Shown here: in pieces, positions 57 through 12,144 of the stretch | Numbering within the stretch: position 1 is the first letter of the stretch | Layout of the letters: each line of letters begins with the position of its first letter | Source of the DNA: Calocera cornea HHB12733 | Lineage: Eukaryota; Basidiomycota; Dacrymycetes; Dacrymycetales; Dacrymycetaceae | Reading direction: 5' to 3' | DNA: 33,609 nt | Assembly: GCA_001632435.1 (NCBI GenBank) | Contig: KV424151.1 | Coordinates: forward strand, 1-33,609 | Notes under the pieces: generated by a model | Told to the model about the DNA's origin: nothing | The model's input: only the letters and a program-made list of their open reading frames with translations | The model's database searches: none | Made by a program: the position numbers and the translations under genes

Positions 57-279
57 GACGCGGATCAGGCTCCGTACACCAGTTCGCTGATTCCAGCGGC
101 GATCCAGCTCGCTCCTCCCTCGCCCTACCTCTAGCTCTAGCTCTTGCCTTGCCCCCTCCGGCACTCGCAGCCTCGGATGCAGCCACGACACGTGCGCTGG
201 TAGCATCCGGTGGCTTTCATTTCTTGAATATTGCACCAAATCAACTTCTTGACCCCCTCCGCTCAACCTATATATTCCT

Positions 280-728
280 ATGCCGCACTCTAATATATCC
301 ACCACCGCCGACTTGTCCGACCAAAGCTCCAACAATGGCTCCCCCGCCCTGTCCTCTGTCCATACCTTCTCCCACGCTCCCAGCAAGCCGTCCCATCCAC
401 GGGCGAAGGCTGCCGTGCCGCAATCTAAGCTGCGGTATTTGGAATCGTGAGCACTTTCGCCTCTCTGTCCCCGTCCACCGCTTGAACTAGCTCTAGCCAT
501 CGTGACCATCGCCTCGACTACCAACGCCAGTATCAAGCTGCGAAGCGTGCGACCGCGCGCCAACGCAAACTAGAAGCACTCGAACGGGTCCGGCGTTGGA
601 GGGAGAAGAAGGCTCGGGGTGATGACCCGTCGGACCATTGCAACGACTCTATGGACAACCTGCCGCCCGATCCGCTCAAGATGCTTGCCGATGTCGCGCT
701 AGAACTTGGAGGAGATAGCTGGGGTTAG
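280..728 (+). CDS. Small basic protein of the KDZ element, two exons
   Basis: Joined exons 280-446 and 497-728 encode about 132 residues. Exon 1 is Ser/Pro-rich and ends KLRYLES. Exon 2 opens with a strongly basic, Arg/Gln/Lys-rich probable helix (DYQRQYQAAKRATARQRK, then WREKKARG) and ends in an acidic tail, LADVALELGGDSWG. The intron (447-496, 50 bp) starts GTGAGC, and its acceptor AG is the last base pair of an ACTAGCTCTAG motif copy. The ATG at 280 follows a TATATATTCC stretch. The basic helix suggests DNA or RNA binding, but I recognise no family. It is the only + strand gene in the element and is divergently separated from its neighbours. The gene call is mine from frame continuity across the splice. 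Confidence 0.6.
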
Positions 729-868
729 CGGTCGTTGGCACATGTTCTGGACTCTGGGTCTTGATCTAGACCCAGAGCGGTTGCGATAGTCAAACCATAC
801 ATTGTATCAGCGCCTACGTCCCCCACCCCTATGTCCTTATGCACACTGCCTATATCTAGCCCCTTGCT

Positions 869-10700: not shown

Positions 10701-11364
10701 CGCTTCTCGAAGTCGGCGGGCATGAGCGCCCCGCCCGGGGGCGTGACCCCGTGGTTCGTGCCTGGCGGGAGGGGGTCAGCGCGAGTTCTAGAGCTAGCTC
10801 TAGAAAGGGGCGCACGCGAGCTGAGACCACAGGGCCTGAACAGCCACCTGATCTTCATCATCCACCCAGTCGGCATCCCAGTCTTCCGTGGATAAGGCCG
10901 CCGGAGGTGTGTCATCGTCCGGTAGCGGGGTCTGGAGACCAGCGTAACGCGTGCCGTACGTGTCAGAGAGAAACTGGGTGGCTCGAGCCAAGTTGCTGTC
11001 CGCTGCAAGAGTACAGAGACGAGTGAGGGGTCCGGTGGTATGGAAGAGGAGCGGACGAACCTTGCAAGTCGCGTGCCCTCTGCGCTTGCTCTAGACCTTG
11101 ACGCTCGCGCAGAGCCTTCAGGGAGTAGGTATATGGCCTTCTTGTGTACTTCCCTGGGGATGTAGGGGCATGGGCACCGGCTTTCGCGTGGGCGCGCGCC
11201 GCTTGGGAGCGCGCGTAGGCGAACAAGTCCATGGAGACGAGGTCGCGCGGCGCCTTGCGCTTGTACTCGGTGAGCGAGGGCGCGACATTGAGCTTCAGAG
11301 CGCGAGAGCTGGCACTAGTCCTAGATCGAGAAGAAGAGGAGCGAGAGGCACTGGGAGAGGACAT
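7758..11364 (-). CDS. KDZ (Kyakuja-Dileera-Zisupton) transposase, about ten exons, apparently intact
   Basis: Predicted DDE/RNase-H-fold transposase of roughly 900-950 residues that mobilises this element. In order: a Ser-rich start (ATG 11364), an acidic N-terminal region, a region with IPYRKVLRQQLSNAYDAY and NTPNWRLLNACSACDY, then DGNNSSKR (probable first catalytic Asp), FLCVCRHGFVLYSVDMVKSG, GYDIGCAHSGTV (second Asp), FHGYAHNRRCQLGFHP, AGLEDFETNERLFSKQN, and the long helical C-terminus typical of KDZ (GYALRTHLAKALRERSEAIR; LFALPGFSG). Well-supported introns: 11060-11003, 10595-10507, 10310-10263, 10106-10060, 9876-9825, 9621-9569, 9194-9136, 8896-8853, 8545-8492. The splice near 10815-10762 is uncertain. 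Nearly all introns carry a CTAGNN motif; in at least two (10106-10060, 9621-9569) the motif itself gives the acceptor AG. No frameshift or stop was found in the conserved core. Confidence 0.9.
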
Positions 11365-12144
11365 GATCGAGTTGAGGAAGACTACCGCGCAGGGAAATAA
11401 TCAAGGGCAAGCCAGGGGGAATCGGTGCTATATCACATCGCGCCTGGGAGCGAAGCCGAGTGTTAAGCGCGGGAGGCACGCGCCGTCACGTGAGCAGCGA
11501 CCGAGGGGGGAAGCATATTTTGAGTTCAATCGATTCCAATCACGCTAGGGATCTCGATCTAGATCTAGCCTCTGCTAGAATCAATATATGAATCCGAAGG
11601 AGGTCGTCGACACCTATCGGAGGAGCGTGCAAGGCGTCGAACATGATCGGGGTCTTCATCGAGACCTTGGCGTTCATAGAAAGCCGGAGTGATGAAGGTT
11701 TCAAACATGATCTGGGTCATCTTCTCACGGTTGGCCTTGGGGTTGAGGGGGCCTCCGTGAGAAGCACGGCAGGCTCGAGGGCTCGCACCAGATCTTAATG
11801 AGGTAGTCGGTCACGTCGCGACCAGCAAGGTCGAGCCGCAGAATGGCATGCGGCAGAGCGAAGCCCTCGTAGATGGGAACAGTGTGGGTATCACCATAAC
11901 CGGAGTCGAGCACGATACGGATCAAGGCCTAGAGCAAGAGCCAGAGGGGGTGGTGAAGGTATACCCACGTGAATAGAATTGGAGCTAGAACTAGAGAGAC
12001 CGCGGGGCAAGCAATCAAACTGGCAAAGTAGGTCGTTGACGGAGATACGCTTCCGGGTGGGGCAAGCCCTGGATCAAGGGCGGGGGCTGGCGCCTGGAAT
12101 ATGGCTGGAATCACTTCCCGCGCGTTTCAGCAAGGGTTCGTGAT
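11365..12144. other. Right subterminal region of the KDZ element
   Basis: This region lies upstream of the transposase ATG. It presumably holds the promoter (a CACGTG E-box sits at 11488-11493). It also contains motif copies at about 11551-11569, 11929-11935 and 11984-11997, and the actin-derived fragment. I found no intact gene. Confidence 0.5.
11672..11933 (-). pseudogene. Rearranged fragment of a host actin gene captured in the element
   Basis: Read on the minus strand, 11925-11795 encodes the actin segment [20 protein letters not shown] followed by [14 protein letters not shown] and DYLIKI. It diverges slightly from the near-invariant actin sequence. Immediately after it, 11773-11685 encodes the segment VLLTEAP, then, after a one-base deletion, [17 protein letters not shown]. 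In real actin the second segment (about residues 103-130) precedes the first (about 151-193). The order is therefore swapped and the frame broken, so this cannot make actin. The fragment sits just inside the right end of the element and is most simply a captured host sequence that was later scrambled. Confidence 0.88.

Follow-up and report, generated by a model that had tools for sequence, protein, structure and literature searches.

Why would a DNA transposon carry one short palindrome almost from end to end, inside its genes as well as between them? The question is raised by the window analyzed here, 33,609 nucleotides of the basidiomycete Calocera cornea HHB12733 (assembly GCA_001632435.1, contig KV424151.1, positions 1 to 33,609), the left end of which (1-12200) is a KDZ element of 12,200 bp. 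The original prediction, made from the letters of the window, described a CTAG motif with a six-base period that fills this element and is nearly absent from the next 21 kb. Our analysis upholds that description, and also reveals different palindromic motifs in other KDZ lineages of the genome, a pattern wider than could be seen from the window. The overall explanation to which we incline, reasoning from sequence, is that the arrays would serve, throughout the element and privately to its family, as binding sites for a protein encoded by the element, which would read their density.

The element is delimited by two terminal inverted repeats (TIRs) of 56 bp, 100% identical to each other:

1..56, forward strand: left TIR, perfect over 56 bp, free of CTAG
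12145..12200, reverse strand: right TIR; similarity between the two copies of the element stops at 12200

The second copy (G000:C103:107377-119576) also lies at a contig end and differs by 1 mismatch per 12,200 bp. Both contigs end at the left end of the element, where no left flank or target duplication can be read. A near-perfect palindrome at 25-69, a GC-rich hairpin, overlaps the left TIR in part.

CTAG occurs 114 times in the element and 32 times in the other 21.4 kb of the window. Pairs of CTAG 6 bp apart number 42, where about one would be expected by chance, and pairs 12 bp apart number 17. The form CTAGNNCTAG is present 42 times in the element, and neither in the other 21.4 kb nor in 7.4 kb of flank of the second copy. 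Across the 32.1-Mb assembly, CTAGNNCTAGNNCTAG has 22 places, ten in each element copy and two elsewhere, while CTAGMKCTAG has 94; with 34 per copy by the linker count of the window, about 26 are left for the remaining 32 Mb. The linkers between paired CTAGs (n=42) are AG (14), CT (10), AT (10) and others (8), and a CTAG often has in-phase neighbors that nearly match it, among them CTTG, CTCG, CTGG, CAAG and CCAG. The predicted privacy and improbable density of the motif thus both stand, the host DNA that was read being array-free, while the arrays recur in the element's only other copy.

Defining an array by CTAGs that lie 6 or 12 bp from another in phase, we count 36 arrays (23 with two CTAGs, 13 with three) among 55 CTAG clusters, in place of the roughly 44 copies first proposed. 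The spacing of the arrays averages 339 bp (range 96-687 bp) with a coefficient of variation (CV) of 0.40; random placement gives a mean CV of 0.97, and none of 20,000 random sets was as even, so the proposed regularity survives comparison with chance. The interval of 226-301 bp suggested for the right third of the element holds for part of that third and not throughout. The outermost arrays lie 130 bp inside the left end and about 206 bp inside the right end. Array flanks have no sequence in common beyond about 12 bp, which argues that the arrays are not copies of a longer insert. A simple tandem-repeat origin was rejected as well, since the element holds only one short duplication, a 126-bp repeat in two copies 79% identical, each with a CTAG array (6741-6756 and 6935-6944). 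The arrays are placed relative to four genes of the element:

280..728, forward strand: small gene, 132 amino acids, with a basic stretch; its intron, 447-496, ends in the CTAG motif
869..2990, reverse strand: accessory gene ACC, 5 exons, 634 amino acids, with a possible helix-turn-helix near the N-terminus
3712..5492, reverse strand: GENE3, 4 exons, 540 amino acids
7758..11364, reverse strand: KDZ transposase gene, 11 exons, 1027 amino acids, intact in our own splice model

The CTAG arrays themselves are as follows (UTR, untranslated region):

131..140: intergenic
487..496: 3´ end of the small-gene intron 447-496
1171..1186: three units, ACC exon
1789..1804: ACC exon
2193..2202: ACC intron
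2423..2432: ACC intron
2689..2698: ACC intron
3070..3079: intergenic or UTR
3232..3247: intergenic
3700..3715: three units, 3´ end of GENE3
4064..4073: GENE3 exon
4157..4172: three units, GENE3 exon
4597..4606: GENE3 intron
4939..4954: three units, GENE3 intron
5239..5254: three units, GENE3 intron
5498..5519: immediately 5´ of the GENE3 start
5813..5822: intergenic or UTR
6224..6239: three units, intergenic
6402..6423: intergenic
6741..6756: intergenic, inside the 126-bp repeat
6935..6944: intergenic, second copy of the 126-bp repeat
7298..7307: intergenic
7557..7566: intergenic
7805..7820: three units, transposase exon, C-terminus
7934..7943: transposase exon
8517..8538: transposase intron
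8866..8875: transposase intron, makes the 3´ splice site
9155..9170: three units, transposase intron
9569..9584: transposase intron after SGEL, makes the 3´ splice site
10060..10069: transposase intron, makes the 3´ splice site
10287..10296: transposase intron
10538..10553: three units, 48-bp transposase intron, ambiguous (in frame)
10788..10803: three units, transposase intron
11315..11324: transposase exon, N-terminal Ser/Arg stretch
11559..11568: intergenic
11985..11994: intergenic, last array ahead of the right TIR

To see how far the pattern extends, we turned to the other KDZ loci of the genome. A KDZ profile gave 51 matches at 31 loci, of which we read the window, the second copy and 18 others (the best-scoring first, then some more). 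CTAG arrays are absent from these 18, CTAGNNCTAG being found once in C10, once in C204 and not at all in the other 16. A scan of 80 palindromic dyads (two bases, a gap of 0-4 bp, and the reverse complement) covered the window and 17 other KDZ segments; because C37 and C10 share 99.8% identity across 5.8 kb, C37 was omitted as an element. The top dyad reached z 6.0-23.4 in 17 of the 18 segments (16 of 17 without the window). Among 12 flanking segments, 11 stayed at z 4.5 or below and one, AT-rich, reached 5.9 (the C37 flank holds 843 N), and in 200 sequences of 8 kb simulated with the dinucleotide composition of the host, z was at most 4.3. Cut into 4-kb tiles, 26 of 36 KDZ tiles reached z 5 as against 1 of 14 flank tiles (C37 flank omitted), and adjoining tiles of the same element mostly picked the same dyad. 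The motifs are:

Window: (CTAGMK)n
C10 and C37: single CTAG, 5.9/kb versus 0.46/kb in the C10 flanks
C35: TCNNGA, 235 in 9.8 kb
C233 and C8: CANTG
C3: CGKMCG/GTAC
C273, C162, C204 and C61: (RGCY)n
C228, C40a and C13a: TGCWGCA/GTAC
C169, C84, C40b and C164: ACGT

In a tree of the KDZ domain, with 3 of 15 inner branches well supported and 8 weak, the clades are the window with C10, C35, C233 and C8; C3 with the RGCY group; and the ACGT group with C186. The motif broadly follows the transposase phylogeny: close kin share motifs and distant ones differ. By the longest KDZ exon, C10 is closest to the window (72%, versus 62-68% for C233, C35 and C8), and in the longer tree alignment C233 is as close as C10. 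The TIR of C10 begins CACCTG, as does that of the window element, and C10 has an 8-bp target duplication. An independent check of the link between motif and element came from a search for four RGCY units, which found 158 forward places genome-wide and, at C42:13338-28904, a dense run of them in a KDZ locus outside the 18; no such run was seen at the KDZ loci C12, C13:273824, C34 and C58 among the matches listed. Both C10 (L007+L008) and C37 (L009+L010) have CACCTG ends and carry internal stops in their KDZ matches.

Within the element, the motif was expected to run across coding, intron and spacer DNA, and so it does: introns (898 bp) hold 14 arrays, exons (6,612 bp) 7, and the remaining 15 are not part of the three large genes, one of these (487-496) being the 3´ end of the small-gene intron. 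The splice models are predicted from sequence alone, and the 48-bp intron 10514-10561 is ambiguous, being in frame. By these models introns make up 7% of the element yet hold 14 of the 36 arrays, and 15 of the 17 introns of the large genes, as well as the small-gene intron, contain CTAG. Array density is nearly equal in genes (about 2.8/kb) and outside them (about 3.2/kb), which points to uniform coverage, with introns used where codons are constrained. Within the KDZ domain, an intron follows SGEL in the window, C35, C233, C8 and C10, and in the first four it carries the motif of its own lineage (across the 3´ splice site in C35). We therefore do not retain the suggestion that the motifs are intron-generating insertions, given the unrelated array flanks and the presence of the SGEL intron in four related elements, three with their own motif.

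While 29 of the 36 arrays are outside coding exons, coding DNA is nonetheless enriched for the motif. In synonymous-codon shuffles of 15 transposase reading frames (2,000 shuffles; three frames have internal stops, and close copies are not independent), the motif count exceeded the shuffle mean in all 15, and in 9 of them at most 50 of the 2,000 shuffles reached the observed count. The window frame in this set ran into introns, and the test was redone on spliced coding sequence. Single CTAGs then numbered 11 versus 6.5 in shuffles for the transposase (50/2,000 reached the observed count) and 8 versus 3.0 for GENE3 (4/2,000). CTAGs with an in-phase CNNG partner, CTAG partners being counted twice, numbered 11 versus 1.3 for the transposase, 9 versus 2.6 for ACC and 6 versus 0.2 for GENE3, with 0/2,000 shuffles reaching the observed count in each case.

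Even spacing recurs in about half of the families. Gaps between TCNNGA sites in C35 are mainly 20-35 or 45-55 bp, a ladder of about 26/50 bp (CV 0.45-0.47 on the two sides of the motif-free stretch described below; 0 of 5,000 random sets match). Evenness extends to the sites of C84, C40b and C164 (CV about 0.70; 0, 15 and 6 of 5,000 random sets as even), to the array clusters of C273 and C162 and, more weakly, to those of C3. Periodicity of 4 and 6 bp characterizes some families, and single sites are found in C35 and the ACGT group. One stretch of C35 (L017+L018 joined, 11806-12632) is free of TCNNGA over 826 bp, including 210 N, where gaps in C35 are otherwise at most 101 bp; perhaps it is a later nested insertion.

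When copies of 67-77% identity are compared, gapped places being excluded, conservation of the motif dyad takes first to third rank among the dyads that have sufficient sites: 1/72, 2/72, 1/57 and 3/53 for GCNNGC, 3/73, 1/2 and 3/68 for ACGT, and 1/4 for CANTG. The ninth pair, C3 versus C162, has differing motifs. About 40-57% of motif sites are unshared between diverged copies, which suggests that turnover is also fast. Swapping of one motif for another in place, examined between C3 and the RGCY group, was suggestive at 4-14 sites only and was not used.

Dense short words that tell own DNA from other DNA are familiar from bacteria, where DNA uptake sequences and Chi are distributed genome-wide; the window motif differs in being restricted to a single family of elements, and that in a eukaryote. 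CACTA/Spm-type elements have subterminal repeats near their ends that bind the transposase or TnpA. They resemble the window element in having several short protein-binding sites within a DNA transposon, while the putative sites of the window span the whole element.

A closer parallel is the VANC/VANDAL system of Arabidopsis, in which VANC reads the density of a family-private motif on VANDAL elements (PMC5735166, PMC10398659). There too, a family's own short motif is present in many copies and is rare elsewhere, density matters, related families differ in a motif that changes fast, and introns carry it (PMC5735166, PMC10398659). VANDAL motifs are 8-9 bp long, mainly non-coding, in one orientation, and part of longer tandem repeats (PMC5735166, PMC10398659), whereas the KDZ motifs described here have palindromic dyads of 4 bases as their cores, extend into coding exons, are evenly spaced in about half of the families, and have no longer repeat as carrier. 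Other fungal KDZ elements are described as carrying TET/JBP (Kojima 2025, PMC12730594). They share with ours the KDZ transposase, the TIRs and, in C10, the 8-bp target duplication. The consulted part of that paper mentions no dispersed internal motif (Kojima 2025, PMC12730594), and the window element, unlike them, gave no match to a TET/JBP gene. A literature search, largely outside subscription journals, turned up no description of motifs like these in KDZ elements.

Among the roles proposed for the motif in the original prediction, dispersed sites for a transposase or accessory protein have the best, though indirect, support, the motifs being private, palindromic, even, conserved and synonymously enriched. 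Privacy in the genome, evenness in about half of the families, placement in introns, conservation, enrichment at synonymous positions and turnover between lineages are what the sequences display; the binding protein, its coat and its purpose are what we infer. That the motif serves as a protein-binding address is probable on the sequence evidence. The reader would most likely be ACC, which has a possible helix-turn-helix, or else the transposase. A single palindromic dyad would be too short for specificity alone; the palindromic dyads suggest a dimer, and density with evenness suggests avidity, perhaps a regular coat, most directly from the ladder in C35. High density and even spacing could thus let a cooperative dimer recognize, and perhaps coat, its own element only. 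Sites would fill non-coding DNA and, to avoid gaps across the genes, occupy introns and those codons that tolerate them; a dyad of its own in most of the KDZ lineages examined, or one common to close kin, would prevent cross-recognition between families. Taken furthest, a lineage-encoded dimeric protein would polymerize at fixed spacing on dyads in introns, codons and spacers into a whole-element coat, with introns as docking sites and a self-recognition code rewritten as lineages diverge; we offer this fuller picture as speculation, a shade less probable than the anti-silencing role considered next.

The likeliest purpose of such binding would be self-specific protection from host silencing, and the second marking of the element for the transposition complex. 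Anti-silencing in particular may be the role but is a tentative assignment. It is favored by C5 DNA methyltransferase matches in the genome (C104 and C177, 6/7 along C177), by TET/JBP in other fungal KDZ elements, and by the VANC precedent. No TET/JBP gene was matched within the element by profile search and Pfam, and the genome-wide matches are two, both sub-threshold and on other contigs; the TET-linked mark that had been proposed is, hence, at most indirectly possible. A weak TET/JBP match at C100:113531-113803 has a Plavaka transposase match some 5 kb away on that contig.

The same sites might instead serve transposition itself, the transposase or ACC binding along the 12 kb, compacting it and joining the distant TIRs, in the manner of CACTA/Spm subterminal repeats taken to an extreme. 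In favor of this, the sites run to within 130 and about 206 bp of the ends, C35 has a regular ladder, and the transposase is what these loci have in common, although by selection, the loci having been found through it. We nevertheless regard it as unlikely, since the TIR has no CTAG and coverage is uniform, in genes and outside, with no crowding toward the ends. A host factor or chromatin constraint, such as nucleosome phasing, replication or a heterochromatin boundary, would explain why several families are evenly spaced, but would not require a different motif for each KDZ lineage, and the host DNA that was read shows no enrichment of the motifs. The rulers moreover vary between families, from about 37 bp to 339 bp; a mean spacing of 339 bp in the window and 36-39 bp in C35 does not suit a single nucleosomal ruler, and the chromatin phasing envisaged in the original prediction loses its footing. 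We consider host selection of the motif very improbable.

An RNA-level role, through intronic splicing signals or pairing of self-complementary RNA, would account for the CTAGs in nearly all introns of the large genes and for those that form 3´ splice sites. With 15 of the 36 arrays outside the three large gene models (one of them the small-gene intron end), and with the motifs of relatives enriched in coding frames too, only a slim chance is left for it, slightly below that of a host constraint. Biased mutation, slippage or insertion of short units could also have left the motif as a functionless by-product, and the 4- and 6-bp periodicity of some families does look like short tandem units. 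Such an origin is improbable, if a little less so than a host constraint, as it sits poorly with the regular spacing seen in several families, sites conserved better than average from one diverged copy to another, enrichment beyond synonymous shuffles, single sites in place of tandem units in C35 and the ACGT group, and the lack of an inserted flank in common.

Several results weigh against an element-encoded reader of private sites. C186 has a top dyad of z 2.4 and no motif, the top dyad of C10 is CATG, not CTAG, the SGEL intron of C10 is without a clear motif, and C12, C13:273824 and C34, which belong to the RGCY-type group, showed no RGCY run among the matches listed. Spacing is not even in C233, C8, C13a, C40a, C169, the single sites of C3, or the CTAGs of C10. 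Six of the 15 single-frame synonymous tests were not significant, nor was the excess of single CTAGs in spliced ACC (11 versus 8.0, 198/2,000). Element limits were taken from TIRs for the window, C35 and C10, from fixed windows around the transposase for C8, C169, C84, C40b, C164, C186, C204 and C61, and from the motif profile for C3, C273, C162, C233 and the C13a group, so for these last the contrast between inside and outside is partly circular. The natural sequences in the dyad scan were KDZ segments and their flanks only. As to the candidate reader, matches to ACC exons came from C35 and C10 alone, and those to its first, helix-turn-helix-like exon from C10 alone; the helix-turn-helix matches of that exon in Pfam and NCBIfam all fall far below cut-off, and clade II elements share other accessory frames.

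Some of the ACC exons are related to parts of C35 and C10. The first exon (92 residues), predicted without an alignment, folds into three helices (mean pLDDT 81, pTM 0.46), a model compatible with a helix-turn-helix without proving it. A PDB sequence search with this exon gave one match (E 0.98), and the first 353 residues of ACC had no protein match at E 0.001 among 7,997 candidates scored. The spliced transposase model contains the PF18758 domain (E 5.3e-70, profile positions 3-217 of 217), and the Pfam score for CxC2, the cysteine cluster sought on the N-terminal side of that domain, is 24.1 bits against a cut-off of 27. A Pfam search gave no match for the GENE3 product. A search of Rfam returned nothing.

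If an element-encoded protein does read these motifs, sequence-specific self-recognition by transposons would extend from plant Mutator-like to fungal KDZ elements, and into coding DNA; with a coat, it would be a distinct kind of self/non-self system. It would become testable how selfish DNA escapes silencing without derepressing its neighbors, how recognition codes change, and what retains introns within transposon genes. KDZ elements could be delimited from sequence only, and would be a source of DNA-binding proteins that read short motifs by density. IMG/VR scans for KDZ elements of other fungi returned none. Two proteins of C. cornea HHB12733 align to the genome almost exon for exon, one on C35 (several exons at 98.7-100%, others lower) and one on C8 (100%), in keeping with this jelly fungus as the probable source. 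A transposase of Calocera viscosa, 76% identical to that of the window, is rich in LDLD close to its C-terminus, where the window transposase has a motif-encoded ELDLDG; this may be a hint, and only a hint, that the same motif is present there.

Beyond the element, a frame at 12676-13332 resembles a protein kinase, as judged by eye, and a tandem repeat of about 108 bp at 26268-26730 lies in a long minus-strand open frame, where it encodes a proline-rich repeat of 36 residues.

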